NCBI GenBank assembly: GCA_030609325.1
Contig: JAUWCL010000030.1
Span: 1-33,693 of the forward strand
Source of the DNA: Candidatus Krumholzibacteriota bacterium
GTDB lineage: Bacteria > Krumholzibacteriota > Krumholzibacteriia > Krumholzibacteriales > Krumholzibacteriaceae
Reading direction: 5' to 3'
Length of the DNA stretch: 33,693 nt
Under the pieces are notes generated by a model that was given only the letters and a program-made list of their open reading frames with translations, was not told the DNA's origin and made no database searches. Both the position numbers and the translations under genes were made by a program. Below are positions 2,260 through 23,547 of the stretch, one piece after another (positions within the stretch are counted from its first letter, which is position 1; every line of letters starts with the position of its first letter).

Positions 2260-3387
2260 CTAGTATTCCTGGAGGACCTTCTCCCACTCGCGCGCGACAC
2301 TGATGCGGCGCTTTACCAGGTCGATGATCTTCGGGTTCCCCGTCTTCTCGCGGAGCTCTTCCCACTCGGCAATCGCCTGTTCGATCTCGCCGAGGCGCGC
2401 GTGCAGGTATCCCTTGATGAATATCGTCTTCTGGTTGTTCGGCCTCATCTCCCTCGCTTTCCTCAGATAAACGAGAGCCTCGCTGAGCCGGTCCATCTTG
2501 TAGTATATCTCGCCGAGCATGCGCAGGGCCTCAAAGCTGTCCTGGTCGATCTGCAGGACCTTCTCGAACTCCGCCGCCGCCTTCTCGAGATTGAGGCGGC
2601 TGTAGTAGTTCCGGCCCTTCCGCAGCAGTTCCTCGATCCGCTCCTCGTTGCCCGCTCCGACCTCGGGATCGATGTCGTCGGTGACAAGCTCGATCACGCC
2701 CATAACCACGAGTCCGTAGATGAGCTTGCTGGCGGTGAACAATTCCTCGCCGACCTCGTCGTTGATCTCGTTGACCGACCTGTGCCCGTCGATCAGCGAG
2801 AGGATCTCCCACTCCCTCGGCTTGAGGTTGAGGGCCTGGTTCTCCTCGTTACCCTGGCAGAGGTTAAAGACAGAGTGTCTCGACGGCACCTTGTTCTTGA
2901 TGTTAGACCACTCGTCGATGCGTCTGGCGCCCTCGAGGATGAGGTTCTCCGTGTTGAGCCTGACGATGACTTCCCGCCTCTCATCGAGGTCCTCCTCGAT
3001 GAAACGGCAGTCTCCCTCCTCCCATTTGAATATGTCGTAGACCGATTCGCGAACCCTCGCGCCGAAGAAGTTCTCGAGATGATTTCCGGAGGAGATTCCG
3101 AGCGCCTCGAGACATTCGATGAGGCTCTTGTGTTTGGGAAGCGCCTTCTCGATCTCTACGATCGAGCCCGAGTCCACAACCCCCCATTCCTCGAGGAGAT
3201 CCACTATCGATCTGGGCGACCTGTCATGTATCGACGCCATGCATACCGATCCGCCCTCGAAGAGGATGATAGCTTCGCGGCTGCCGTCGACGTCGGTGAT
3301 GATCAACCTGCCGGTCTTCCCGTTCATGTGAAGGATCTGAAACAGGTCGAACAGCCCGAGTTCTTCGATTGATGACTGAATCGCCAT
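2260..3387 (-). CDS. DUF4388 (PATAN) protein with C-terminal TPRs
   Basis: 375 aa, soluble, no signal peptide. Residues 1-165 look like the DUF4388/PATAN domain: SIEELGLFDLFQILHMNGKTG at the start and the closing ILEGARRIDEW helix typical of the family. Residues about 185-235 resemble a winged-helix-like segment (LKPREWEILSLIDGHRSVNEI). Residues about 250-345 hold two to three TPRs. PATAN domains occur in response-regulator outputs linked to gliding, phototaxis and social motility; that link is family knowledge. This is the last gene of the Che operon, 21 nt after the TPR gene, so a role as scaffold or output of the pathway is inferred. No REC domain is fused here; the separate CheY may act with it. 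Confidence 0.8.
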   Translation of the reverse strand: MAIQSSIEELGLFDLFQILHMNGKTGRLIITDVDGSREAIILFEGGSVCMASIHDRSPRSIVDLLEEWGVVDSGSIVEIEKALPKHKSLIECLEALGISSGNHLENFFGARVRESVYDIFKWEEGDCRFIEEDLDERREVIVRLNTENLILEGARRIDEWSNIKNKVPSRHSVFNLCQGNEENQALNLKPREWEILSLIDGHRSVNEINDEVGEELFTASKLIYGLVVMGVIELVTDDIDPEVGAGNEERIEELLRKGRNYYSRLNLEKAAAEFEKVLQIDQDSFEALRMLGEIYYKMDRLSEALVYLRKAREMRPNNQKTIFIKGYLHARLGEIEQAIAEWEELREKTGNPKIIDLVKRRISVAREWEKVLQEY

Positions 3388-3408
3388 TGTCCGTGTTCCT
3401 TTCGGCTT

Positions 3409-5271
3409 CTACAGATCGATCTTGAGGTCCTCCAGAAGATCGACGGGGTCGTCGTCTTCCGATACGGACATATCCTCTATCGTCTTCACGCCGGATTTCT
3501 TCTTCGCGTCCGCCGCCTCGTTTTCCTTCGTATTGCCGTCTTCAGCGGCTGCCGGTTTTGCGGCTGCGGAAGCGGCTTTCGGAATCGCGGCCCTGTCCTT
3601 CATCCTCTTCAGGTCATCCTTCCCGTCGGCGAAGAGCGATTCGAGGCTCTCGCGAATCGTGTCGAATCTGCGGCTTGTTCCGGCCTGCAGCAGCTTAATG
3701 AGCTCGTCGTCGGGCTCGTCGCGGAGCTTCGAGTCGACCCTGACGGAATCGGTCGTGACCTGTTCCCCGTGAGATATGAGGAAATGCATGCCCGTGTACT
3801 CCGGATAGATCGCAGCACCCTCGAGTATGCTCTGGATCGCCCCCCTGAAGTTGTCCTCCCTCAGGCAGATCAGGCCCTTGAGATAGTGAGCGTCGGCATG
3901 ATGCTTGTCGCACGTCAGGGCGCTCTCGATATCGAACAGGGACAGCGTCATCCTGTTGAGCTTGTAATGAAGCAGCGCTCTCTTCTCGTAGAGGATCGCG
4001 CTCTTTCCCGTGAAGGCCTCGAGCCTCTGGAGAAGATTCTCCGCCATCATGTATTCCTCGCGGAACAGGATGCTGGTAAGATAGTTGTAGTTCAGCTCAA
4101 GGTTGTACAGGTTGATGTTCAGTCCTTTCTTGAACATCCTCTCCGCTTCCTCAACGAGCCCTACCTGGTAGAGGAGCACCCCGAGGTCGTTCATCGTATC
4201 GGCGTCGGCCGAATTGAGCCTGAACGCCTGGAGGTAACAAACTGCCGCCTTCCTGTGTTCTCCCGCCTCATGATAGATCGTCCCGCAGAGCAGGAACGCC
4301 TCAGGATTGTCGGGATTCACCTCGAGCGCCTTGAGCAGCAAGGCGAGGGCTTCCGCTCCATCCTTCTCTGCCAGGTGGACCTTGCCCATCTCGATATAAA
4401 CGCGGTCCTTCTCCGGCATGTCCTGCAGAGCCTTGCGGAACTCCTTCAGGGCTTCCTTGAAGTAGCCGCGTTGCCGGTAGGCGGTGCCGAGCGTGAACGC
4501 CGTGCTTTCAAGACTCGGGATATCCTGGCCCAGGCTTCTGCCACCCTCGCCGGCCGCGTCGGAAAGCGCAAGATTGGCCTCCATGTTCTGGAACGACGGG
4601 TTGAGATTCGACGCCACACGGCTCTCCTCAAGGGCATCCTGGTAGTAGCCCAGGTCGCCGAAAGCAAACGACAGCAGAAAGTGCGAACGCCAGTATTCGG
4701 CGTCGATCTTTATGGCTGTCCGCAGTTCGGATATCGCTTCGTCGGTCTTTCCAAGGTTGTAGTAAATCTCGCCGAGATCGGTATGAAACACGGACGATTT
4801 GCTTACGTTGTCCGCCGCGCTCAGGAAATGCTCGAGCGCCTGCTGGTAGAACCCCTGCGCCTTGAGCACCGAGCCTAGGTGAATCCTGGCCATGTAATGA
4901 TCGGGATTCTTTCCCACGACCTGGCCGAGTATCTCGGAGGCCTCGTCGAGCCTGCCCATGTTCTGATAGCTCACACCGAGCCTCAGAAGGGCCTCTTCGT
5001 TGGCGGGGTCTTTCTCGACCTCTTTCTTCCACCTGCTTACATCGGGATCCTCCATCTTCGTCTCGGAGAAGAGATAAAGAAGATTCTCCCTCGCCAGCTC
5101 GAATCTCGGATCGATCTTCAGCGCTTCCTTGAACTGCCTGATCGCCTCGTCGTACACACCCTTGCGGTAGTAGAGCACGCCGAGGTTGTTCAAGGCTCCG
5201 GGGTCGTTTCGATCGACCCTTTCGGCGAAGCCCAGAAGGACGTACCTCTCTTGTTTATTACGTTCGGGCAT
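3409..5271 (-). CDS. Large cytoplasmic TPR-repeat protein
   Basis: 620 aa, built almost entirely of tetratricopeptide repeats from about residue 15 to 490. Examples are ALNNLGVLYYRKGVYDEAIRQ near the N-terminus and DTMNDLGVLLYQVGLVEEAER in the middle. There is no signal peptide or membrane segment. A charged Ala/Lys/Glu-rich linker follows, ending in an acidic tail (DPVDLLEDLKIDL). Such proteins are protein-protein scaffolds. It starts 22 nt after cheY and is followed 21 nt later by the DUF4388-TPR gene, so the three are almost certainly co-translated. I infer that it organises the output of the chemosensory pathway. No enzymatic motif is visible. Confidence 0.8.
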   Translation of the reverse strand: MPERNKQERYVLLGFAERVDRNDPGALNNLGVLYYRKGVYDEAIRQFKEALKIDPRFELARENLLYLFSETKMEDPDVSRWKKEVEKDPANEEALLRLGVSYQNMGRLDEASEILGQVVGKNPDHYMARIHLGSVLKAQGFYQQALEHFLSAADNVSKSSVFHTDLGEIYYNLGKTDEAISELRTAIKIDAEYWRSHFLLSFAFGDLGYYQDALEESRVASNLNPSFQNMEANLALSDAAGEGGRSLGQDIPSLESTAFTLGTAYRQRGYFKEALKEFRKALQDMPEKDRVYIEMGKVHLAEKDGAEALALLLKALEVNPDNPEAFLLCGTIYHEAGEHRKAAVCYLQAFRLNSADADTMNDLGVLLYQVGLVEEAERMFKKGLNINLYNLELNYNYLTSILFREEYMMAENLLQRLEAFTGKSAILYEKRALLHYKLNRMTLSLFDIESALTCDKHHADAHYLKGLICLREDNFRGAIQSILEGAAIYPEYTGMHFLISHGEQVTTDSVRVDSKLRDEPDDELIKLLQAGTSRRFDTIRESLESLFADGKDDLKRMKDRAAIPKAASAAAKPAAAEDGNTKENEAADAKKKSGVKTIEDMSVSEDDDPVDLLEDLKIDL

Positions 5272-5293
5272 ATCAGGTCCTTTCGATCCTCCC

Positions 5294-5671
5294 TCAGACG
5301 TTCTGAACCTGGTTGAGGATCTTTGAAACCACTTCGATCACTCTCGAAGGGTTAAAGGGCTTGATCAGAAAATCCTTCGCTCCGGCCGTCATCGCATCCT
5401 GGACAAGTGCCTGCTGGCCGAGTGCGCTGCACATGACGATCCTCGCCTGGGAATCGCCCGCCATGATATGACGCACCGCGTCGATTCCGTTCATCTCGGG
5501 CATGATGATGTCCATCATCACGAGATCGGGCTTGAGCTCCTTGTATTTTTCTACGGCGAGCGTGCCCGTGTCGGCCTCGCCGACGACCTCCATGTCGTTT
5601 CCCTCGAGAATGTCCGAAATCATCTTCCTCATGAAGATCGCGTCATCCACTACCAGTACTCTGGCTTTCAC
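5294..5671 (-). CDS. cheY: CheY-like single-domain response regulator
   Basis: 125 aa, one REC domain and nothing else. The acidic pair D9-D10, phosphoacceptor D54 (MMDIIMPEMNG), switch residue S82 and K104 (LIKPF) are all in place. The start codon is GTG, chosen because AAAGGAG lies 6 nt upstream. In the family, CheA phosphorylates CheY, and CheY-P acts on a motor or another output. The CheC phosphatase gene lies directly upstream (19 nt) and CheA just before it, so this is the natural partner of that kinase. Its target is not encoded in this window. Confidence 0.92.
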   Translation of the reverse strand: MKARVLVVDDAIFMRKMISDILEGNDMEVVGEADTGTLAVEKYKELKPDLVMMDIIMPEMNGIDAVRHIMAGDSQARIVMCSALGQQALVQDAMTAGAKDFLIKPFNPSRVIEVVSKILNQVQNV

Positions 5672-5690
5672 TGTTATCTCCTTTCTTCTC

Positions 5691-6308
5691 TTAATCGACC
5701 TTGATCGCCTCGAAAATCGTGTCGATAGAGTCTGACGTTGGAATAAAAAACAGAAAACCCTTGCACTCGCTCTGCGAGAGCGTGAACGCCGTCTCCAGAA
5801 CGATCGCGTAATCCGAATCCAGGCTCAGGTCGACGAGGATAGAATCCATCACGGCGCCGAGCATGTCGTACGAAATCTGGGGGACGGAGTGCATTATCTT
5901 CTTTCCGAGAAATGTCGAGTAGGTATTCAGATAGCAGCCGCACATGATGTTGCCGATCTCCTTCAGGGTGGAGAGGGCGTACTCATCGGTTATATTCGGT
6001 CCCTCGACGTGCCGGCCCGTTGCCATCTCGACCATCTTTTCCGCCTCGGGATGAGGAAACAGCAGGAACATCATGCCCCTGAAATTCTCACTGTAGCCCT
6101 CGAGGTAGACAACGGATATCATCGATTCCGGTCCGTTGAACAGCGTGTAGATGATCTGAAGCGGGATGATGTCCACGTTCGTGATGGAGATATCGATCCT
6201 CCTCTTCAGCAGTTCCGCGAGACCGGTGATGGCATGCGCCGAGCCGATGTTCCCGAGCTCCTTCAATGCGTCGATCCTCAGATGCGACGGCCTCTTAATG
6301 GGGCTCAT
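5691..6308 (-). CDS. cheC: CheC-type CheY-P phosphatase
   Basis: 205 aa, the normal length for CheC. Two copies of the phosphatase helix are visible: D13-x3-E17-x2-N20 in DALKELGN, and S-x3-E-x2-N in STLKEIGN near residue 115. CheC dephosphorylates CheY-P and, in Bacillus and Thermotoga, binds CheD to tune receptor deamidation. Both cheY (19 nt downstream) and cheD are in this operon, so that feedback loop is likely present. The start overlaps the end of cheA by 14 nt, giving translational coupling. Having two active-site helices separates it from CheX and FliY-like variants with one. Confidence 0.9.
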   Translation of the reverse strand: MSPIKRPSHLRIDALKELGNIGSAHAITGLAELLKRRIDISITNVDIIPLQIIYTLFNGPESMISVVYLEGYSENFRGMMFLLFPHPEAEKMVEMATGRHVEGPNITDEYALSTLKEIGNIMCGCYLNTYSTFLGKKIMHSVPQISYDMLGAVMDSILVDLSLDSDYAIVLETAFTLSQSECKGFLFFIPTSDSIDTIFEAIKVD

Positions 6309-8025
6309 TCAGACACCTTCCTTTGAATAGAAAACGTGGATCCCAAATAAAAGCTATTTTTCCGCTGCCGAGAATCGTCGCGCCGGTGATACCGCTGACT
6401 CCGCGGATCAGCGAAGGTAACCCCTTGATCACGATGTCCTGCTGACCGAGTATCCTCTTCGTGACCAGACCGACCTTCCCGTTTCCGGTGTCGACGAGAA
6501 TCAGCTTTATGTATCGCGAACCGTCTGCGGACGTCCGAATGCCGAACAGATCGTCCGGCCTCACGACCGGAATGACTTCATCGCCATACTGTATGACCTC
6601 GTGTCCCATCACGGTCCTGAGCGAATCGCGCTCCAGGCGCGATGTCTCGCATATGTATTCGGCCGGAAGGGCGTACACCTCGTCCCCGACCTCGAAGAGA
6701 AGCGCCTTGATTATCGAGAGGTTGATCGGAAGCTGTAGCAAGACCGTCGTGCCTATTCCAGGCTCGCTGTGGAGCTTCATCGATCCCCCGATCGCGTCCA
6801 CCGCTTTCCTCGCAACGTCCATGCCGACTCCCCTGCCGGAGAACCTGCTTACTTCCTCACGTGTCGAAAAACCTGGTGTGGAGAGTACCCGGCAGAGCTC
6901 GTCGTCGCTCATCAATTCGGCTTTCGTCCCGTCCGTCCCGATCCGCTTCTTTTCGAGGACCTTTTCGAGATCTATCCCCCTGCCGTCATCGGTCACCTGG
7001 AGGACGACGAAATTCCTGTCCCTCTTGGCGCTGAGTACGATCCTCGCCGTCTCGGGCTTGCCGAGGGCTATCCTCTCTTCGGGAGACTCGACGCCGTGGT
7101 CGACGGCGTTGCGGAGGAGATGGACGAGCGGATCGACCATCGCCTCGAGCACGGTCCTGTCGAGGCCGATATCGGCTCCCATGATATCGAGCCAGGCGCT
7201 CTTCTCGAGGGCCAGCGAGGAATCCCTCACGAGCCTCTTGAAACGCTGGAAGACCTGGCCGACCGGTATCAGCCTCGCCTCCATCACTTCCTTCTGGATC
7301 TCCGAGATCAGCCTTCCCGAGGAGGAGAGCTCTTCGTTGAGCGATTGCGATCCGATCTTTCCCGCCAGGCTGACAAGTTTTATCCTGCTGATTATCAGCT
7401 CTCCGACCAGGTCCATCAGGGCATCGAGCCGTTCGAGGTCGACCCTCGTCGATGTGACTCTCTCGCCGAATCCGCCCTTCGAGGCGGTCACGGCCGGATC
7501 GTTCCCGGCAGTGGTGGTATCTTCCTCTTTCGGCTCCTCATCGTCCGACTCATACGCATCCTCAATAGCGTCAGTATTTATATCTTCGGAATCGAGTTCC
7601 GGTGATGGCGTCTGATCTCCAGCCGGATGGCTATAGAGAGTTCTTGTAGTCATCGGCGAGAGCAGCACGAAGAAATCGCCGAGCAGGTCGGTGTCATCGC
7701 ACTCATCCTCGTCGACGGCGACCCTGACGAGCTCCCTGAGCATGTCGATACTCCTGAGGAGCAGGTCGGCCTCGGCCCTGGAAACGCTCATCTCTCCCTT
7801 GCGGCAGCGATCGAGTACATTCTCGAGGGTATGGCTGGCCTCGACTACATGGTCGTATCCCATCGCTCCCGACATACCCTTGAGGTTGTGAGCGTTGCGG
7901 AAGAGTTCCTCAACGCAGGCGGCGCAGTCCCGGCCGATCTCGAGAGACATCACGCCCGACTCGAGCGACTGCAGGATCTCGCCTGCTTCGCTGGTAAAGA
8001 GCGCCTTGTAATCACTGACTTTCAC
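6295..8025 (-). CDS. cheA: CheA chemotaxis histidine kinase lacking a clear P2 domain
   Basis: 576 aa, short for CheA (usually 650-750). The HPt domain has its phosphorylatable H46 in AHNLKGMSGAMGY. Residues about 125-185 are an acidic, low-complexity linker where the P2 CheY-docking domain would normally sit. P3 dimerisation follows at about 190-245. The ATPase domain has an N-box (HLLRNAVDHG, 302-311), DDGRGID (346-352) and GRGVGMD (397-403). The CheW-like P5 domain covers about 435-570. The start is GTG (8023-8025) behind GGGAG and overlaps cheB by 14 nt. CheA autophosphorylates under receptor control and passes phosphate to CheY and CheB; without P2 the transfer probably runs straight from HPt. 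Confidence 0.92.
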   Translation of the reverse strand: MKVSDYKALFTSEAGEILQSLESGVMSLEIGRDCAACVEELFRNAHNLKGMSGAMGYDHVVEASHTLENVLDRCRKGEMSVSRAEADLLLRSIDMLRELVRVAVDEDECDDTDLLGDFFVLLSPMTTRTLYSHPAGDQTPSPELDSEDINTDAIEDAYESDDEEPKEEDTTTAGNDPAVTASKGGFGERVTSTRVDLERLDALMDLVGELIISRIKLVSLAGKIGSQSLNEELSSSGRLISEIQKEVMEARLIPVGQVFQRFKRLVRDSSLALEKSAWLDIMGADIGLDRTVLEAMVDPLVHLLRNAVDHGVESPEERIALGKPETARIVLSAKRDRNFVVLQVTDDGRGIDLEKVLEKKRIGTDGTKAELMSDDELCRVLSTPGFSTREEVSRFSGRGVGMDVARKAVDAIGGSMKLHSEPGIGTTVLLQLPINLSIIKALLFEVGDEVYALPAEYICETSRLERDSLRTVMGHEVIQYGDEVIPVVRPDDLFGIRTSADGSRYIKLILVDTGNGKVGLVTKRILGQQDIVIKGLPSLIRGVSGITGATILGSGKIAFIWDPRFLFKGRCLNEPH

Positions 8026-9109
8026 TGGCCACTACTCCCGCTGTCGCGTTTTCCACCTCGCGCACTATGCAGGCGGCTATCTCCTGGACCGGCAGGACCT
8101 CGTGGGCGAGCCCCGCCGATACGACCGCGCCGGGCATGCCGTATATCATGCTCGTGTCGCGATTCTGGCAGATAACCCTGCCTCCGTACTTCCTCACGGC
8201 GTCGCATCCGACCTCTCCGTCCCTCCCCATTCCAGTCAGGATGACAGAAATGAGCCTTTTCTTGAAAACGGGTGCAATCGACGTAAGCGCGAAATCTATC
8301 GAAGGACATGCCGTCCTCTGTTTCTCGTTTCTCGGAAGCAGCATCGTCAGCGGCTGGCAGCCCTTCTCGTCCATGAGAAGATGCCTGCCGCCCGGCGCCA
8401 CCAGTATACTTCCCGGCCTGATCGGCTCTCCGTCCTCGGCCTCCATCACATACATCGCCGACCTGGCATCGAGCCTCTCGGCAAGGTAGGTGGTGAAATT
8501 CGAGGGCATGTGCTGGACCACGATCACCGAGGCGGGCAGATCGGCCGGCAGCCTGGGTATGATCTCTCCGAGCGCCTGGGGTCCGCCCGTGCTCGCGCCG
8601 ATCAGCACGACGCATTCCGTCCTCGACTTGCGCGATGGCCTCACCTTGGCCTTCAGATCGAATTTCACCGGCGCGAAACGGACCTTCTCGGCGTCGACGG
8701 TCGCGGCAAGCTTGACCTTCGAGATAAGCTCTCTGACGGGGAATCGCATCCCCTTGAACGTCTTGGCCACGAAATCGACCGCTCCGTACTCGAGACAGGT
8801 GAGCACCATCCTCGCGCCCTCCGCAGTATGTCCGCTGAGGATTACCACGGGCGTGGGCCATTCGCTCATGATGAACCTCAACGTCTCGAGGCCGTCCATC
8901 CTCGGCATCTCGAGATCCAGTGTTATGCAGTCCGGCCGCAGGTCGACAAGTTTCCTGAGAACCTCGCGGCCGTTGGACGCCGTTCCAACAACTTCTATCC
9001 CGGGTTCCGCGTCGAGAGAGTCGGCGATCACACGGCGCATAAAGGCGGAATCCTCGCCTATCAGCACCCTGATCTTCCCATTCGCCGCTGCTTTCTCCTC
9101 AACTGCCAT
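8012..9109 (-). CDS. cheB: CheB receptor methylesterase/glutamine amidase
   Basis: 365 aa with the standard two-domain layout. The N-terminal REC domain has E19-D20, phosphoacceptor D65 and K116. The C-terminal esterase has the catalytic triad S173 (GASTGGP), H200 (VVQHMP) and D297 (LTGMGRDG). It removes methyl groups from receptor glutamates, opposing CheR, and is activated when CheA phosphorylates it. Its ATG shares one base with the cheD stop (TGATG), and its 3' end overlaps cheA by 14 nt. The full set of residues argues for a working enzyme. Confidence 0.94.
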   Translation of the reverse strand: MAVEEKAAANGKIRVLIGEDSAFMRRVIADSLDAEPGIEVVGTASNGREVLRKLVDLRPDCITLDLEMPRMDGLETLRFIMSEWPTPVVILSGHTAEGARMVLTCLEYGAVDFVAKTFKGMRFPVRELISKVKLAATVDAEKVRFAPVKFDLKAKVRPSRKSRTECVVLIGASTGGPQALGEIIPRLPADLPASVIVVQHMPSNFTTYLAERLDARSAMYVMEAEDGEPIRPGSILVAPGGRHLLMDEKGCQPLTMLLPRNEKQRTACPSIDFALTSIAPVFKKRLISVILTGMGRDGEVGCDAVRKYGGRVICQNRDTSMIYGMPGAVVSAGLAHEVLPVQEIAACIVREVENATAGVVASESQ

Positions 9110-9660
9110 CAGAACTTCTCCCCTTTGTTCTGAGCGTCCTTTACCGTCACTCTTCCACTCGTGACGTCAAAAAAGACCGTTCTTCCCTTCGTTCCTCCGG
9201 TCGATTCGGCAACTATCGGGATGTTCCTCCTCGCCAGCTCCTCCCTCGTCGCCTTCACGTTCTCCTCCCCGATCTGAATCACGCCGGGGCTGGCGCTTAT
9301 CGACTGGAACATATTCGCGCCGCCGAATATCTTCGCCTTGATCCTGCTCCTCAGCGCGCCCCTCTTGGCCATTCTCGAGAGCATCAGTTCCACGGCGGTA
9401 TCGACGAACTTCGCCCTGTTGACGTTGTTCCTGACCCTCTCGCTGCTCGGATGCATCACATGAGCGAGCCCTCCGATCTTCGAGACCGGGTCGTAGAGCA
9501 CGATGCCTACGCACGATCCCAGGGCGAAAGTAATCATCCTGGCCGGGGCTATCGCGACTATGAACTGCGCCATCCCGACCTTTATGAGTGCTCCTGTTTC
9601 TCTGGTGTCTATCATCGCTGTGAATCCGGAAACCGGACCTGCTCCTCTTTCTTTCTGCAT
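9109..9660 (-). CDS. cheD: CheD receptor glutamine deamidase
   Basis: 183 aa. The catalytic triad T44/C50/H67 keeps the spacing of Thermotoga CheD (T21/C27/H44), in ITFALGSC and GLAHVMHP. CheD converts receptor glutamines to glutamates and is regulated by CheC. The start at 9660 adds about 20 residues over minimal CheD; an internal ATG at 9615 is possible, but it lacks a better ribosome site. The gene starts 18 nt after cheW and is coupled to cheB by TGATG. CheD, CheC and CheB together suggest both deamidation and methylation control of the one receptor in this operon. Confidence 0.92.
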   Translation of the reverse strand: MQKERGAGPVSGFTAMIDTRETGALIKVGMAQFIVAIAPARMITFALGSCVGIVLYDPVSKIGGLAHVMHPSSERVRNNVNRAKFVDTAVELMLSRMAKRGALRSRIKAKIFGGANMFQSISASPGVIQIGEENVKATREELARRNIPIVAESTGGTKGRTVFFDVTSGRVTVKDAQNKGEKF

Positions 9661-9678
9661 TTTCCCTGCTGCCGCCCT

Positions 9679-10170
9679 CTATACCTTGGTGAGGTTCTCT
9701 ATATCGAGCGATTCGGAGACGAGCTTCTTCGGGTCGAGACAGATAATCATCCTGTCGCCGACCTGGGCTATCCCGAGAATCGCTTCCTCACACCTGTGAT
9801 CCAGGCTGACGCCGGGCGAGGCCCTTATCTCCTCGTCCTCGATCTTGATGACGTCCCGGACCTCGTCGACCACGATCCCGAACCGGCCCTCGCCGGACTC
9901 GAGAATGATCACCCGCTGCTTTCGGCTGTTGTCCTCTTCCGTCTCCCTCGATCCCAGGACGAGATGTATCCTCAGCACGGGAATGATCTCACCCCTGAGA
10001 TTGATGACGCCCTCTACGGGGCCGGCCATCCCGGGTATCGGGCAGGCCTCCATAGACCTGATGATCTCCTTGACCTTCCTCACAGGGATCCCGTAGTGCT
10101 CCCGGCCGAGACGGAACGTGACGAGCTGCGTCATTGTCGTTGAATTCCGATCGTATCTTTCGTTGCTCAT
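9679..10170 (-). CDS. cheW: CheW coupling protein
   Basis: 163 aa, one CheW domain (about residues 14-150). Typical blocks are VTFRLGREHYGIPV, the region IPGMAGPVEGVINLRGEIIPV and FGIVVDEVRDVI. CheW joins receptors to CheA in signalling arrays. The ATG at 10170 has AAGGAG upstream; the later ATG at 10134 would still preserve the domain. It lies 32 nt after the receptor gene, the partner it must bind. Confidence 0.94.
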   Translation of the reverse strand: MSNERYDRNSTTMTQLVTFRLGREHYGIPVRKVKEIIRSMEACPIPGMAGPVEGVINLRGEIIPVLRIHLVLGSRETEEDNSRKQRVIILESGEGRFGIVVDEVRDVIKIEDEEIRASPGVSLDHRCEEAILGIAQVGDRMIICLDPKKLVSESLDIENLTKV

Positions 10171-10202
10171 CGATCTACGCTCCTTCCATGGCGGCCAACC
10201 GG

Positions 10203-11837
10203 TCAGTTCGCATTTACCACTTCGTCGACCTGGTCGATGACGCTTATCTTGAAGCGTCCGACATTCTCGCGAAGCTGAATCGCCATGTCGCTGAGCTTCT
10301 GGGCCGAAGAGGCCACGTCTTCCATGCTCGAGGTCATCTGCTCCATCGACGCCGCCGTTTCCTGCGTCGACGAGGCGTTTTTCTCGGCGCTGGACGATAT
10401 CCCGTCGACCGAATCGATCACGTTCTTCATCCCGCGACTCAACTCTTTGGTGGCTGCCGAGATCCGCCTCGCCATATCGCTCGAGCTCTTCAGCACCTCT
10501 ACGATCTCGTCGAGCGATTCTCCGGTCCTCGTGATGACCTCGCGGCCCTCGGCGACCTCCTTCGAGCCGAGCTCGATGCTCGAAACAGCAGTCTGCGTGT
10601 CCGCCTGCGTCTGCTTGATGAGAACGGCGATCTCCTCGGCTGCCTTGGCACTGCCCTCGGCGAGTTTCTTGACCTCGTCGGCAACGACCGCGAACCCGCG
10701 TCCGGCCTCGCCGGCCCTGGCGGCCTCTATCGCGGCGTTGAGGGCGAGCATGTTGGTCTGATCGGCAATGTCTGTGATCACGTCGACGATCTCACCGATC
10801 TGGATCGATCTCTCGCCGAGATGCTTTATGATAACCGCCGACTCGTTGGTAACGGTGTAGATCGTGTTGATCTTCTCGACGGCTTCCTTGGCGGCGTCGC
10901 CGCCCTTGGTGGCCGTCTCGGAGGCGTTGGTGGCGGCCGAAGCGGCAAGCTCGGCGCTGTTGGCGACCTGCTTGACCGACCGTTCCATGTTCCTGATCTC
11001 CTTGATCGTCTCGTCGACCTTGTGTGCCTGAAGGTCGGTCGACTTGGCGATGTCCTGTACGGTCAGGGATGTTTCCTCGGTGATCGAGTTCATCTCTTCT
11101 GTCGAGGCCGAAAGGCTCTGGGCCGAGAAGTTGACCTTGTCGGCGGTCGACCTGATAACATTTATGATCCCCGCTATGTTGGAAAACATGTCGTTCAGCG
11201 TCGTGCCGAGCCTTCCCAGCTCGTTGTTCGACTTGATGTCGATCTTCGTCGACAGGTCGCCGGCATTGTTCGCAAGTATCCTGCTCGCCGAGAGGAGCTG
11301 GCGTACGGGCTTCTTCACGACCATATGGACGAGGTAGTAGAATACCCCGAATATGCCGAGAAGGGTGCCGGCGATGATGCTGAATATCTTCCAGCGAAGG
11401 CCGCCGGCCTCGTATCTTTCCGCCGGGGCAACGGTGACCCTTATAGAACGGACCGAACCGTTCTCGACAGGAGCGGTGAAGCTGCCCGCGGAGGCCGCGT
11501 CGGGAGCGACTTCGCCCTCGACGATCTCCGAAGACGACATCAGTACGGCGCCGTCGCCGTCGAGGATCTCGATCTTCTTTACGAAGGAATAATCCTGCTG
11601 CAGTTCTCCGAGCAGCGCGGCCAGACCCTGCTTGCTCTCGTCGCCCGTTACCGATCCGATGACGGCAGGCATGAACGCCGCCCAGTCGTTGTCCCTCTGC
11701 CTGACAGCGTTATCCACGGCACCGCTGGAGATCTTTATCAGCGTGATCGTCGAAAGGGCGCACATGAAAAACGCGATGAGCGCCATCGATAAAAACACCC
11801 TGCCGGAAAGGGTCTTGCCGAATCCAATGTCCTTCAT
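10203..11837 (-). CDS. Methyl-accepting chemotaxis protein
   Basis: 544 aa. TM1 is about residues 13-35, followed by a periplasmic sensor of about 115 residues (36-149), TM2 at about 150-173, a HAMP domain to about 225, and a long coiled-coil signalling domain. The hairpin tip is classical ([21 protein letters not shown], then [16 protein letters not shown]). No NWETF-like CheR/CheB tether ends the protein. The sensor is small and matches no ligand family I can name; it might be a dCache- or sCache-like fold. It is the only receptor in the operon, so it probably defines the stimulus. Its ATG lies 1 nt after the cheR stop. Confidence 0.92.
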
Positions 11838-11838
11838 C

Positions 11839-12687
11839 TCAATCCTCCCTCGTATGGTCTTCCTGCGGTTTTTTCCTGTAGATCTTGCATGTCGGCTTCA
11901 CAAGCTCAAAGAGATCCTCGAGCGGTCTCGACAGGGTCTCGCTCTTGCCGAGAACGAGCAGCCCCCGGTCCCGGAGCGATCCAGAGAAATTCGTGACGAC
12001 CTCTTCCCTGACCTCGTGCTCGAAATGTATCAGCACGTTCCTGCACATGATCAGGTCGAGATGGGAGTACGGCGACGCGGCGAACAGGTCGTGAGGCCTG
12101 AATCTCACGAGAGACCTCAACCTCGACGCGACTTTCCACGACCGTCCTTCCTTCTCGAAATACCCGTCCCTTAAATCGGCGGGCAGGCCCTCTATCTTCT
12201 CGTCGCTGTAGACGCCCTTCCTCGCCGTCCTGCACGAGTCCTCGGATACATCAGTCCCGTATACCTCGATATGCATGTCCGGGGAGACCCTGCTTACGGC
12301 GCGGTCGATCATCATGGCCATGCTGTACGTTTCCTCCCCGGTGGAGCACCCCGCGCTCCAGGCCCGGACGACTCCGTGACCCGAGGTCTCCTTCTCGTCG
12401 ACGAGCGCCGGGACGTATCCCCGCTCGAGCGATCTGAAGACGTCGCGGTCCCTGAAGAACTCGGTCACGTGTATCGTGATTGTGTCCATCAGCTTTTCCA
12501 TCTCTCCGGAATCAGAGGTCAGGCACCCGATGTACTCCTCGATATCTTTGCAGCTCGCCATTGCCATTCTGTGCAGGACTCGCCTGTGAAGACAGGTCGA
12601 CCTGTAACATGATAGGTCGACCCCGTACCTGCTCTTGACAATCCAGGCGAGTTCGCTCAGATCGAGCACATCCGTCTGGTGGGCCAT
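11839..12687 (-). CDS. cheR: CheR receptor methyltransferase, first gene of the Che operon
   Basis: 282 aa, normal size for CheR. The N-terminal helical domain includes HVTEFFRD (73-80). The SAM-binding loop is [17 protein letters not shown] (from 109), and the later CRNVLIHF motif is the family's conserved NV[LF]IYF-like block. It methylates receptor glutamates using S-adenosylmethionine. GGGAGG precedes the ATG at good spacing. The gene opens the operon behind a sigma-54 promoter (12853-12868) and a leader of about 155 nt with three hairpins. No TPRs are fused, as they are in some CheR variants. Confidence 0.94.
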
Positions 12688-12699
12688 CTGCCTCCCGGA

Positions 12700-12831
12700 C
12701 CGGCGGCAACGGCCGCCGGATCAAGATGAAAATCATCGGGCGGCTCTCGTCACCGGAACGCGAAGTCCCGATGACTCGTGTCGCCCTGTTGCATTTGCTG
12801 TTATGCATTGTACCGCCCCGAAAAATCGGGG
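12700..12831 (-). promoter_or_regulatory. Structured 5' leader of the Che operon
   Basis: Three perfect stems lie between the predicted start site and cheR. They are 12816-12821/12826-12831 (CCCCGA, loop of 4), 12733-12740/12767-12774 (8 bp, TCATCGGG, enclosing 26 nt) and 12700-12707/12712-12719 (8 bp, CCGGCGGC, loop of 4). The last abuts the GGGAGG ribosome site. I could not match it to a known riboswitch; it may tune translation, or may be simple GC-rich folding. Confidence 0.4.
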
Positions 12832-12852
12832 ACTGTTGCCGGGAACCGGAAC

Positions 12853-12868
12853 TGCAAGTGCCATACCA
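12853..12868 (-). promoter_or_regulatory. Sigma-54 promoter of the Che operon
   Basis: The minus strand reads TGGTATGGCACTTGCA. Aligned to TGGCACG-N4-TTGCW it has the GG and GC at exactly 10-bp spacing and matches 10 of 12 consensus positions. Transcription would begin near 12842. Two identical dyads at 12944-12956 and 13044-13056 lie where enhancer-binding activators usually bind. Confidence 0.7.
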
Positions 12869-12943
12869 CAAGGAGACGAAGAACGCTTTACAGAACGGCA
12901 ATATTGCCGCTCGCGCCCCGTCCGGACAACAAACGACATAGTA

Positions 12944-12956
12944 TGCTTTTTGCAAA
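12944..12956. promoter_or_regulatory. Enhancer-like dyad, proximal copy (TGC-N5-GCA)
   Basis: TGCTTTTTGCAAA, a TGC-TTTTT-GCA dyad. Its centre is about 107 bp upstream of the predicted sigma-54 start. The same 13-mer recurs exactly 100 bp further upstream. Confidence 0.5.
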
Positions 12957-13042
12957 GGAGTTATGCCGTTTCAGCAACAACAGGGACCGATCGGGAGCAG
13001 GGATGGAAGACGGGGAAGAACGCAGGAAATTGCACCATTTTA

Positions 13043-13056
13043 TTGCTTTTTGCAAA
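13043..13056. promoter_or_regulatory. Enhancer-like dyad, distal copy (TTGC-N5-GCAA)
   Basis: TTGCTTTTTGCAAA, a perfect TTGC-N5-GCAA dyad centred about 207 bp upstream of the predicted start. It shares 13 identical bases with the proximal copy. Between and around the copies (12869-13119) there is no credible gene. Confidence 0.5.
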
Positions 13057-13119
13057 TCGGCGGAAATCCTGCCGGCCTCCTCTTCTACAGCACAGACTCC
13101 CCCGAAACGGGGAGCGCCC

Positions 13120-13548
13120 GGGCTCGACCAGTTGATGATCCCGATCAGGAGCAAGGATACGATCCTCGAACTCAATCCCGACCTGATCAATCTGGGGCTC
13201 TCGAACAGGAAGCACGGAATCCGGGCGAACCACATATTTTCTACCGACACCTTCAGCGAGGACTGCGTCACGTATTCGAGACATTTCGCCCCCGCCGTGG
13301 GAATGTGAGAGGATCCCGGAACCGGCACCGCCGCCGCGGGCCTGGACAACTACCTCCTCCGTCACGGAATCGTGACCTCCGGAGAGATGATCGTGGAGCA
13401 GGGCAACGACAACAGCAGCCTCGCCCGCATACTCGTCGAAGTCGAGGAATCGATGCTCGACGAGGGCTCGGCGCGCATCGGCGGCCTTGCCGCGACATCG
13501 CTCACCAGGGAGATCTCCCTGGGGAGCGGCGACGTAGTCATCGTCTGA
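13120..13548 (+). pseudogene. phzF-family epimerase/isomerase remnant with an in-frame TGA
   Basis: The plus strand encodes the C-terminal half of a PhzF-family protein. It begins GLDQLMIPIRSK, runs to YSRHFAPAVGM, hits TGA at 13306-13308, then continues in the same frame with the family signature EDPGTGTAAAGL and a normal end ..SGDVVIV at 13548. Full PhzF-like proteins are about 260-300 aa; only about 142 codons remain. The N-terminal half, which holds the family's catalytic glutamate, is absent; upstream translation shows no homology. Two lesions (deletion and nonsense) make this a pseudogene. Its stop lies 3 nt from the end of the convergent histidine kinase gene. Confidence 0.82.
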
Positions 13549-13551
13549 GTT

Positions 13552-15252
13552 TTACTGTGAGACCTTCACCCTGTCATACAGGCAGCACGACATCGGGATG
13601 GAGAAACTGAACGTCGATCCCTTCCCCTTCTCGCTTTCCACCCAGACCCTGCCCCTGTGCAGGGTAATATAGTGCTTGACGAGACGCAGGCCTATGCCAA
13701 GACCGTTCTTGCTCCTCGAAGTCCCACCGTCGACCTGCGTGAAGTTCTCGAAGATCTCCTGCGTCTCCTCAGGCTCCATACCCGGGCCTCCGTCCCTGAC
13801 TGAGACGATTATCTCGCCTTCGCCGCATCTCGAGGAAACGGTCACCGCTGCCCCGGAAGATGCGAACTTGACGGCGTTGCCGAGGAGGTTTACGCAGACC
13901 TGCCTGATCCTCTGCGGATCGAACATCGCGATGGGGATCAAGTCGTCGAGCTCGGTGACGATGGTAACGTCGTTCTTGCGCGCGGAAGGCTCGGCCATCT
14001 TCACCGACAGCCTGATTATCTCGTTTATGCTCGCCTCGGTGACGTTAAGCATCGTATCGGAGACCTCAACCTTAGACAGGTCAAGCAGGTCGTCTATCGC
14101 GGCAAGGAGCTTCTTCGACTGGGCGTCGATGATCTCGAGAAAATCACGCCTTGTGTCAGCTTCGATCTCGCAGTCGGAATCCTCGATGAGCGTGTCGGAG
14201 TAGGCCATGATTATCGACAGGGGTGTCCTCAGCTCGTGGCTGATGCGTCCCAGGAACTCGCTCTTCAGCCGGTCGAGCTCCATCAGCTTCCTGTTGACCT
14301 CTGTCAGCTCCCTGTTCTGGATTGTGATCCTCTCATCGAGCATCTTTCTCTCGGTCACGTCGTGCCCCACGCCCAGGACATACGGATGTCCCTTGATCTT
14401 GACAAGCGTCGCCGATATGTCCATGTAGACGACCTCGCCGCTCTTTTGCAGACACGGGATCTCGGAGAGCGTGGCCGGTTCTCCCTTCAGGACCCCCGCG
14501 AGATTGGAGCGCGAGAAATCCCTGCGGTCGGGCGTCGTGAATAGCCAGAAGCTCTTCCCGATAATCTCCTTCGGCGAATAACCGAAATCCCTGTAGACCA
14601 CATCGTTGCATTCAACGATGTCGCCGGAATAGTCGATCAGCATGATGACTTCGCTGGCATGGCTCATCAGGGTCCTGTACTTTTCTCCGAGTTCTCTTTG
14701 GCTGTCGATAAGCTGAGAGTTCTCGATGGCGATCGACGTCAGCTGGCTGAACTTATTGACGATCTCGAGATCGAACTCGCTGAAATGGTTCTTCTCGTAA
14801 CTGCCGAGGTTCAGCGTGCCGATAAGCGAATCCTTCGCGATGAGCGGCACGACGATGTCGGAGCGGAGATTGTCCTCTTTCATTATCTCGGAGAACCTGT
14901 CGTCGGAAGATATGTCGCGTCTGAGTATCGGTTTCCTGTTTATCGCCACACAGCCGACGAGATTGGACTCCTCCATAGGGACGAACCGTCCCTCGTACGA
15001 GGTGTCCCCGTTACGCCGGTGGATGTGCCTGATGTAGAGACAGTTGTCGTCCTTCTCGTAGATGGCGAGACAGCCAATGTCGTAGTCGATTATCCGGGCC
15101 AGCTCGCTCGACATCTTCGACAGGATGTGGTCGAGGTCGAGCCGGGAGTTTATCGCCTCCGCCATCTCCATGACGGCGGAGAACTCCCGGATCAGCTCGT
15201 CCTTGTCCTTGGCGGGCGAGTATACAGTGCTAAAAAACCGTTCGCGTTCCAT
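13552..15252 (-). CDS. Soluble sensor histidine kinase, GAF-PAS-HisKA-HATPase
   Basis: 566 aa with no membrane segment. A GAF domain covers about residues 30-180, a PAS domain about 195-305, and the dimerisation domain carries H339 in ISHELRTPLS. The ATPase domain (about 435-555) has NLLGNAVKF, DGGPGM and GLGIGL. It would sense an internal signal and phosphorylate a response regulator, but no cognate regulator is adjacent, so it is an orphan or serves the nearby Che or another pathway. It starts 109 nt after tnaA on the same strand and may be read from that operon. The gap between them shows no clear terminator. The ribosome site is weak (GGATAATCA-ATG). Confidence 0.9.
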   Translation of the reverse strand: MERERFFSTVYSPAKDKDELIREFSAVMEMAEAINSRLDLDHILSKMSSELARIIDYDIGCLAIYEKDDNCLYIRHIHRRNGDTSYEGRFVPMEESNLVGCVAINRKPILRRDISSDDRFSEIMKEDNLRSDIVVPLIAKDSLIGTLNLGSYEKNHFSEFDLEIVNKFSQLTSIAIENSQLIDSQRELGEKYRTLMSHASEVIMLIDYSGDIVECNDVVYRDFGYSPKEIIGKSFWLFTTPDRRDFSRSNLAGVLKGEPATLSEIPCLQKSGEVVYMDISATLVKIKGHPYVLGVGHDVTERKMLDERITIQNRELTEVNRKLMELDRLKSEFLGRISHELRTPLSIIMAYSDTLIEDSDCEIEADTRRDFLEIIDAQSKKLLAAIDDLLDLSKVEVSDTMLNVTEASINEIIRLSVKMAEPSARKNDVTIVTELDDLIPIAMFDPQRIRQVCVNLLGNAVKFASSGAAVTVSSRCGEGEIIVSVRDGGPGMEPEETQEIFENFTQVDGGTSRSKNGLGIGLRLVKHYITLHRGRVWVESEKGKGSTFSFSIPMSCCLYDRVKVSQ

Positions 15253-15361
15253 TGATTATCCGCTTTACGAAATATTTCTCTTGAGAACCGATCAGGTCTT
15301 TTTCAAGCATGAAATATTCCATTTTACGGATAAACGTAACAAACCACCGGAATCGGCCCTG

Positions 15362-16996
15362 TCAGCTCCTGAACGAGAATCGGCTCTTGAAGTGCCTGAG
15401 GCTCAGATCCCTGCCGTACTCGACATTTACGGCCGGTATCCTGTCCCGGTTGTCGGCGAGGACCTTTATAACCTCTACCACCGAGAAGAGGTCCTGGTCC
15501 TCGTAGACCAGCCTGGGAACCGCGGCCCTGACGCAGTTGACCCTCGGCTCGGGCGGGATCTCCTTCTCGCCGTCGAAGCTTCCGAAGGCGTACAGGCCGA
15601 GCTCGCAGACGCGGTGCCCCGCGATCAGGAGCAGCGCGGTAAGCGAGATGCCCTTGAAATCGTCGTCGCCGGCCGTACCGTCGAAAAACCTGTCGAGGTC
15701 GATATAAACGGCGTGTCCGCCAACCGGCCTGATCACGGGGATCCCCGCCTCGTAGAGTTGAGTGCCGAAGCGAACGACCTGCCCGATCCTCGCGTCGAGG
15801 TACTCGTCGCGGACGACCGTCCTGAGGCCCTCCGCTATCGCCTTGAGGTCCCTGCCGGCAAGCCCGCCATACGTCGGGTGCCCCTCGGCCATGATCTGGT
15901 AGTCGGTGATCTCCTCCTTGAAGTGGGAAAACTTCTTCGAGAAATCGCCGTCCATGCGGATCACGAGCGCCCCGCCCATGTTGACGAGACCGTCCTTCTT
16001 GAGACTGATGTGGAATCCGTCGGCGTACCGGAACATCTCGTGGACGATCTTCCGGATCGAGCTGTCCCAGAACTCGTCTTCTCGCTTCCTGATGAACCAC
16101 GCGTTCTCGGCAAACCTGCATGCGTCGAAGAAGAAGGGCACGCCATGCTTGCGCGTAACGTTGCGGATCTTCCTGATGTTGCTTATCGAAACTGGTTGCC
16201 CTCCGCCCGTGTTGTTCGTAATGGTCAGGTAGACAAGGGGTACGCGGTCTTTCTCGTGCTCGAGCAGGTTGTCGAGCTCCTCGACGTCCATATTGCCGCG
16301 GAACGGGTATATATCGTCGTTCTCGAGGTGCTCGCGGCAGGGCAGGTTCAGCGGTATCATCCCCTTGTCCTCGATGTTCCCCTGCGTTGTGTCAAAATGG
16401 GAGTTGCTCGGAATGATCCAGAGGGGCAGATCCTTCGCGTGCCCGTTCGAGTTCAGTTTCGATTCGATACGGCTCTTCAGCTCCGGCATCAGTCCGTCCG
16501 ATAGAGGAGCGCTGCTGCCGCGCCCTGCAGCGGCCAGCTGCCTGGCCAGGATCGAGAAGAAGGCGTTCTCGGCCGCACGGCCCTGGTGGAAGAGAAAGAG
16601 ACTCTCCGACAAGCCGCCCGAGATGCCGTCCTTCTCGCACCAGCCAGCGCCGAACGTCTCTGCGAACTGCGACCTGAGCTCGAAGTACCCCTCGTTCGAC
16701 CCGTATGCCTCGTCGCCGAGCATCATCGCGGCCCACTGGGCCATCGTCATCGTGGTCGTCCCCGAATCGGAGAGAAGATCGCATCCGGGTATTTTATCGG
16801 CCCTGAAGAGAAAAGCGTTGAGCCCGGCCTCGTTTATCAGGATGTCACGCCTCTGCTCGAAATCGTATATCGAACAGTCGCGGAACCTCACCACGGCGTT
16901 CCGGTACGGTCTCGGCCTGTACCACTGCCCCGGCTCTTCCGGGGTGTCTACGTTTTCCCGGAATTTCTTGATGAAGAAGGCTGTGGAATCGGACAT
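15362..16996 (-). CDS. tnaA: Tryptophanase (PLP-dependent beta-eliminating lyase)
   Basis: 544 aa of the tryptophanase/tyrosine phenol-lyase family, which splits L-tryptophan into indole, pyruvate and ammonia. Visible motifs are YGSNEGY, FHQGRAAEN, NSHFDTTQGNIE, FDACRFAEN and the PLP-lysine block SLKKDGLVNMGG (K334 by alignment to E. coli K270). The C-terminal LRHFKSRF also fits. The position that is Arg381 in tyrosine phenol-lyases reads Leu here (CELG rather than MERG), favouring tryptophanase. It is about 70 aa longer than the E. coli enzyme; much of the excess is an insertion near residues 150-190 with a Lys/Ser-rich helix. The ATG overlaps the trpS stop by one base (TGATG), so the two are translationally coupled. 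Confidence 0.88.
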   Translation of the reverse strand: MSDSTAFFIKKFRENVDTPEEPGQWYRPRPYRNAVVRFRDCSIYDFEQRRDILINEAGLNAFLFRADKIPGCDLLSDSGTTTMTMAQWAAMMLGDEAYGSNEGYFELRSQFAETFGAGWCEKDGISGGLSESLFLFHQGRAAENAFFSILARQLAAAGRGSSAPLSDGLMPELKSRIESKLNSNGHAKDLPLWIIPSNSHFDTTQGNIEDKGMIPLNLPCREHLENDDIYPFRGNMDVEELDNLLEHEKDRVPLVYLTITNNTGGGQPVSISNIRKIRNVTRKHGVPFFFDACRFAENAWFIRKREDEFWDSSIRKIVHEMFRYADGFHISLKKDGLVNMGGALVIRMDGDFSKKFSHFKEEITDYQIMAEGHPTYGGLAGRDLKAIAEGLRTVVRDEYLDARIGQVVRFGTQLYEAGIPVIRPVGGHAVYIDLDRFFDGTAGDDDFKGISLTALLLIAGHRVCELGLYAFGSFDGEKEIPPEPRVNCVRAAVPRLVYEDQDLFSVVEVIKVLADNRDRIPAVNVEYGRDLSLRHFKSRFSFRS

Positions 16997-18021
16997 CAGA
17001 CGTTCTCCCTCGTCGGAATGTTCATCACTTCCCTGACTTCCTTTATCGTCTCTTTCGCAATCGCGCGGGCGCTGTCCGCGCCGGCCCCGAGTATTTCCCT
17101 TACTAGCTTCGGATCGGCCTCCAGTTTGGTGCGCCTGTCGCGGATCGGCTCGAGGACGGCGTTCATCTTTTCCGCCAGCTGCATCTTGCAGTCGACGCAG
17201 CCCCTCTCACCCTTCTCACACTCCGAGCGGATAACCTCGAGCTCCACCCTGTTAAATATGCCGTGGAAAGCGTAGACGACGCAGCCGTCGGGATGGCCCG
17301 GATCGTCCTTGCGTATCTTGACCGGATCGGTGAACATCGTCCGGATCTTCTTCGTCGTTTCTCTCGCACTGAGATTCGTCGCGATATAATTTCCCGAGCT
17401 CTTGCTCATCTTCCTGTCGACGCCGTCGAGGCCGGGCACCTTGGGCACCTCGGTCAGGAGCGCCTGCGTGATCGGGAAGACGTCCGTGCCGTAGAGTGAG
17501 TTGAACCTCTGCGCGAGGTCCCTCGTCATGTTGATGTGCGCCTCCTGGTCCTTGCCGACGGGAACGAACTCGCCCTTGTAGACGAGGATGTCGGCCGACT
17601 GCAGTGTAGGATAGCCGAGGAGCCCGTAGCTCGGGTTCTCGATCTTGTACCCCCGGACCATGTCCTTGTATGTGGGATTGCGCTCGAGCCAACCGAGCGG
17701 GGTGATCATCGAAAAGAGCAGGTGGAGCTCTGCCACCTCGGGGACGTGCGACTGCACGAATATAGAGCACTTCCCGGGATCGAGCCCGGCGGAGATCCAG
17801 TCTATGGCCATCTCGTGAACGTTGGCGCTGAGATTGCCGACGTTCTCGAATCCAACGGCATTGCCGCCGCCGGGAGTGGTAAGGGCGTGCCAGTCGACGA
17901 TGAAGTAGAAGCAGTCGTACTCTTCCTGGAGCCTGACCCAGTTATCGAGCGCTCCGAGCAGGTTGCCCAGATGGATACTCCCCGTCGGCCTCATGCCGCT
18001 GGTGACCCTTTTCTTTGCCAT
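16996..18021 (-). CDS. trpS: Tryptophanyl-tRNA synthetase with a Cys cluster
   Basis: 341 aa class I synthetase that charges tRNA-Trp. The HIGH-type motif is GSIHLGN (14-20) and the KMSKS loop is DRKMSKSSGN near 195. A cysteine set C-x20-C-x6-C-x2-C (from DGCVVYAF to GCVDC) resembles the 4Fe-4S site described in Thermotoga TrpRS, where the first gap is 22. AAGGAG lies 8 nt before the ATG. The tRNA-Trp gene ends only 69 nt upstream on the same strand with no strong terminator between, and tnaA follows with a 1-nt overlap. It may be the sole housekeeping TrpRS or a regulated second copy; the window cannot tell. Confidence 0.94.
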   Translation of the reverse strand: MAKKRVTSGMRPTGSIHLGNLLGALDNWVRLQEEYDCFYFIVDWHALTTPGGGNAVGFENVGNLSANVHEMAIDWISAGLDPGKCSIFVQSHVPEVAELHLLFSMITPLGWLERNPTYKDMVRGYKIENPSYGLLGYPTLQSADILVYKGEFVPVGKDQEAHINMTRDLAQRFNSLYGTDVFPITQALLTEVPKVPGLDGVDRKMSKSSGNYIATNLSARETTKKIRTMFTDPVKIRKDDPGHPDGCVVYAFHGIFNRVELEVIRSECEKGERGCVDCKMQLAEKMNAVLEPIRDRRTKLEADPKLVREILGAGADSARAIAKETIKEVREVMNIPTRENV

Positions 18022-23531: not shown

Positions 23532-23547
23532 AGCAAAAAAAATGCCA
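23532..23547 (-). promoter_or_regulatory. Sigma-54 promoter of the barrel/lipoprotein operon
   Basis: The minus strand reads TGGCA, eight T, GCT. GG and GC are exactly 10 bp apart, and TGGCA plus TTGCT match the -24/-12 consensus at 10 of 12 positions. Transcription would start near 23521. A perfect dyad at 23621-23636 lies about 108 bp upstream, at the same distance as the enhancer-like site of the cheR promoter. Confidence 0.7.

Follow-up and report, generated by a model that had tools for sequence, protein, structure and literature searches.

A sigma-54-type promoter and a helically phased distal site are conserved upstream of a chemosensory operon of Krumholzibacteriota

How a bacterium of the phylum Krumholzibacteriota, for which we know of no genetic work, might switch on a whole chemosensory system is the question raised by the locus described here. 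The window, that is, the whole stretch of 33,693 nt that was analysed, is the complete contig C53 of a Candidatus Krumholzibacteriota MAG (genome of 2.63 Mb), and the nearest relatives of its cheR among named genomes belong to Candidatus Krumholzibacteriota. An archaeal source, suspected at first because of the CheC, CheD and TPR proteins, was discarded in view of these relatives and of the rpoN gene. A first-pass annotation had proposed that a ten-gene che operon is driven by a sigma-54 promoter with a pair of identical upstream sites. The genes concerned are these:

2260 to 12687, minus strand: ten-gene operon cheR-MCP-cheW-cheD-cheB-cheA-cheC-cheY-TPR-TPR/DUF4388 (Pfam matches)
13552 to 15252, minus strand: GAF-PAS-HisKA-HATPase histidine kinase (Pfam matches), adjoining che in the relatives by synteny and having no adjacent partner
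13096 to 13545, plus strand: remnant of a phzF gene that points away from cheR; the second half is left, with one in-frame TGA

The che genes occupy the minus strand from the start of cheR at 12687 down to 2260 with intergenic gaps of no more than about 40 bp. The gene order was identical in the 14 loci of relatives that were read. The wider order (trpS, a tryptophanase-like gene, the histidine kinase, the divergent phzF where present, and cheR onward) was kept across two families, the exceptions being contig ends and small losses. The trpS, tryptophanase-like lyase and GAF-PAS histidine kinase genes beside che (13552 to 18021, minus strand) form an order-wide neighbourhood, and the conserved kinase is a candidate sensor. 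The phzF remnant showed 86% identity to residues 178-327 of PhzF of G002, where the gene is intact; its single in-frame TGA corresponds to TGG in the relatives.

Upstream of cheR the following elements were considered:

12853 to 12868, minus strand: -24/-12 element TGGTATGGCACTTGCA, predicted sigma-54 promoter, kept in 24/24 orthologous cheR upstream regions
12944 to 12956, minus strand: proximal copy of a 13-mer, the second site of the first-pass annotation, found in this genome only
12951 to 12963, minus strand: TAACTCCTTTGCA, which overlaps the proximal copy and takes the position of a conserved TAAC..TTG element that resembles an IHF site in some relatives
13043 to 13055, minus strand: distal activator-type site, core TTGCAAAAAGCAA, kept in 24/24 orthologous promoters
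13031 to 13036, minus strand: GGTGCA, an extension of the distal site present in most of family f1 and absent from family f2

The -24/-12 element is present as had been described: read on the minus strand from 12868 to 12853, TGGTATGGCACTTGCA fits GG-N10-GC and places the predicted start at about 12842, 12 bp past the -12 GC. In a single genome such a match is weak evidence and not significant, the strict pattern TGGYAYN5TTGCW giving 12 matches genome-wide vs 9 for its reversed control and a looser pattern giving fewer matches in the window than in shuffled sequences; it is the conservation in relatives that makes the promoter convincing. The sequence TGGTAYRGC..TTGCA, or a near form of it, was found upstream of cheR in 23/23 orthologues belonging to two families, and G007, whose cheR is split between contigs, carries GGGTATAGCATTTGCA, bringing the total to 24/24. 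Identity between genera was 0.87 in the element vs 0.38 in the spacer, and conservation continues beyond the -12 element as TTGCAAANTCGRTTCCC. The distance from the element to cheR was 120-181 bp in most orthologues and 251 bp in G019. A single rpoN gene was found in the genome, all 58 genomes searched (this one included) have rpoN, and clear sigma-54 activator genes number about 21 here, so that a sigma-54 switch is possible in the organism. The proposal that che has a sigma-54 promoter is thus supported by the 24/24 orthologous promoters.

A short hairpin, CCCCGATTTTTCGGGG, is located in the predicted leader (12816 to 12831, minus strand) and was kept in the three genomes of genus g1; no Rfam match near the gathering score was obtained for an RNA element in this leader. 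Elsewhere in the window, a second strict -24/-12 match, TGGCATTTTTTTTGCT (23532 to 23547, minus strand), stands just ahead of a run of genes encoding a signal-peptide protein, a lipoprotein-like protein and beta-barrel-like proteins, which had no Pfam matches.

The 13-mer TGCTTTTTGCAAA occurs exactly, as claimed before, at 12944-12956 and 13044-13056, with centres at about -108 and -208 from the predicted start. The window has no further copies even with up to two mismatches (expected number 0.13; a pair arose in 0 of 100 shuffles), and the exact form has only two copies in the 2.63 Mb genome, both at che. When the orthologous cheR upstream regions were compared, the promoter and the distal site were kept in 24/24, and the proximal copy was absent from every relative. 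The observation that by the first-pass annotation would have spoken against its proposal, orthologous regions devoid of the -24/-12 element and the dyads, was thus not made as regards the promoter and the distal site. The conserved core of the distal site, TTGCAAAAAGCRA, matched at 10-13 of 13 positions in all 22 relatives whose regions were long enough to be aligned, and the site was also found in G001 (contig C220) and G007, which completes the 24. Between genera the core had an identity of 0.92 vs 0.38 for the spacer, the latter being near saturation. The TGC-N5-GCA dyad that had been suggested as the binding site does exist but is incomplete, because most genomes of family f1 have GGTGCA 5-6 bp after the core, and the site conserved in this family is of about 25 bp (TTGCAAAAAGCRA-N5-GGTGCA). 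The dyad was also considered as a piece of another sigma-54 promoter in either direction and was rejected by eye on its unfit GG-N10-GC spacing. A wider regulon of the exact site was likewise discarded: matches outside che amounted to about 0.16 per genome vs 0.12 in outgroups, that is, background, with the exception of one phzF.

The distance between the distal site and the -24 element was restricted to 171-179 or 185-187 bp, and never fell between these values, in 24/24 promoters (171-177 or 185-187 bp in the 22 aligned relatives, 187 bp in G001 and 179 bp in G007). The two observed classes of distance differ by about one helical turn, and insertions of about 10-11 bp sit at different places in different genera. 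The standard deviation was 5.5 for this spacing vs 20.6 for the leader; a Rayleigh value of about 3e-5 for the phasing ignores relatedness and, with few independent events, serves as a guide only. Such a restriction to one face of the helix is as expected for an activator that works by looping, and in all 24 the conserved site falls within the 80-200 bp upstream of the promoter that are expected of an enhancer. A distant activator-type site, as had been proposed, is supported, and it stands in helical phase with the promoter.

Taken together, these data make it probable that the che operon is expressed from the sigma-54 promoter under an activator of the NtrC-like class that acts from the distal site by looping, and that this site is held jointly with phzF. 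According to this model, sigma-54 RNA polymerase would transcribe the operon from the -24/-12 element at 12868-12853, and a sigma-54 enhancer-binding protein would bind the distal site at 13055-13031, on one helix face at about 175 or 186 bp from the promoter, and reach the polymerase through a DNA loop. Formation of the loop may be aided by a bend at the TAAC..TTG element; three genes of the HU/IHF family are present in the genome, and the element agreed with the IHF consensus at 9/9 positions in G002 and G008 and at 6/9 here, most genomes not scoring above shuffles. Where the divergent phzF survives, the distal site would be the start-proximal element of that gene as well.

That the two identical copies work as a pair of activator sites, as the first-pass annotation had it, might be argued from their being exact, the sole ones in the genome, and at distances usual for such sites. 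We consider this quite unlikely, since the proximal copy was absent from all relatives, including G001 and G002 of the same genus. Moreover, the -24 element is 87 bp from the proximal copy vs 187 bp from the distal one, so that the copies, 100 bp or about 9.5 helical turns apart, differ in phase by about half a turn, and the proximal copy replaces part of the conserved TAAC..TTG element. Unconserved, out of phase and lying on another element, the proximal copy arose recently and in this genome only; the identical pair is therefore particular to this genome, and the switch does not rest on it. A still less probable explanation is that che is also, or mainly, read through from the upstream histidine kinase gene or another promoter, the sigma-54 promoter then not being a strict switch. 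The kinase gene is oriented like cheR, and its strand showed no terminator-like site; however, no sigma-70-like site was found in the interval, an opposed phzF lies between kinase and cheR in most relatives, and the -24/-12 element is kept in 24/24 regions.

A different objection is that the distal element serves phzF alone, as its operator or as part of its promoter, and is near che just because phzF is, the sigma-54 activator of che binding elsewhere or acting from solution. In most relatives the divergent phzF starts about 22-26 bp beyond the site, and exact or related elements occur 35-45 bp ahead of the start codons of unlinked phzF paralogues. The distal core is kept in three genomes that lack phzF at the che locus (G006, G011 and G020). 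The loss in G020 may be recent, the start region of phzF being still visible, which would suit this objection. In G006 and G011, on the other hand, the core and GGTGCA are intact while the flank is near saturation, with no trace of the phzF start in the flank of G011, and at least one loss of phzF at che loci looks old. This persistence, and the limitation of the distance between site and -24 element to two values one helical turn apart, speak against a role in phzF alone, which we regard as unlikely. Variants of the site before phzF genes nevertheless indicate that it is not private to che; with moderate confidence, the distal site is probably common to che and phzF, and one protein would then probably act on both. 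The related elements before the phzF paralogues have no sigma-54 promoter at the corresponding position (no convincing divergent one was found at these genes, where the excess of forward matches was weak), and therefore the protein that binds them need not be a sigma-54 activator.

Returning to the preferred model of a looping activator on a shared site, we can only tentatively suggest how it arose: a regulatory element of the phzF family in these genomes may have been recruited by the sigma-54 chemosensory promoter as an enhancer in helical phase with it. A single regulator would then couple production of the chemosensory array to a PhzF-type enzyme whose gene lies in a trpS/tryptophanase neighbourhood. 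The link with the phzF upstream regions predicts joint control of che and phzF. For Krumholzibacteriota the locus offers a phylogenetically tested regulatory switch of a chemosensory system, one in which two families retain a single layout of the promoter while the DNA separating its elements has diverged beyond recognition.

The NtrC binding site, TGCACC-N5-GGTGCA, offers no more than a lead. Most f1 sites contain GCA-N9-TGC, which is the spacing of the NtrC dyad, and end in GGTGCA; in contrast, their left half is GCAAT and not GCACC, genus g2 has N10, family f2 is without GGTGCA, and the NtrC-type dyad does not take in TTGCAAAAAGC, the part that is conserved best. The general arrangement resembles the textbook sigma-54 promoter, which has an upstream activating sequence and may include an IHF bend (PMC7057263), in having the -24/-12 element, a distant site, helical phasing and a possible bend element between them; it differs in that the distance is at the long end, the bend element is IHF-like in some relatives, and the activator and its site appear undescribed. 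A chemosensory operon dependent on sigma-54 is on record in Rhodobacter sphaeroides (Martin et al. 2006, J. Bacteriol. 188:7932, via PMC7277832) and is tied there to the Fla1 flagellar hierarchy (PMC7277832). The present operon would share the control by sigma-54 but belongs to another phylum, has another gene order and activator site, and forms a stand-alone locus by trpS, the tryptophanase-like gene and the histidine kinase. A limited search of titles and abstracts gave no description of the motif or of chemosensory regulation in Krumholzibacteriota. A sigma-54 chemosensory operon as such is already known; the distal motif appears undescribed.

The precise motif TTGCAAAAAGCRA-N5-GGTGCA is a handle for finding the activator. 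No activator gene was found in the che neighbourhoods that were read. Naming one by reciprocal best hits and flanking kinases, on an incomplete automatic pick of genes, singled out none: at least 11 candidates had reciprocal best hits between f1 and f2.

Many phzF-family genes (L215-L242) share an element, approximately GGAATT-TTGCACY-N6-TTGC-N5-GCRA, located 35-65 bp before their start codons. A conserved sigma-54-like sequence, TGGAAYRGAAKTTGCG, stands 87-91 bp before the start in one group of phzF paralogues, found in G000 (C36:45421, L217), G001 (C177, L219) and G006 (C29, L216); the G000 member (L217) comes immediately after an activator gene (L079) and a gene for a histidine kinase.
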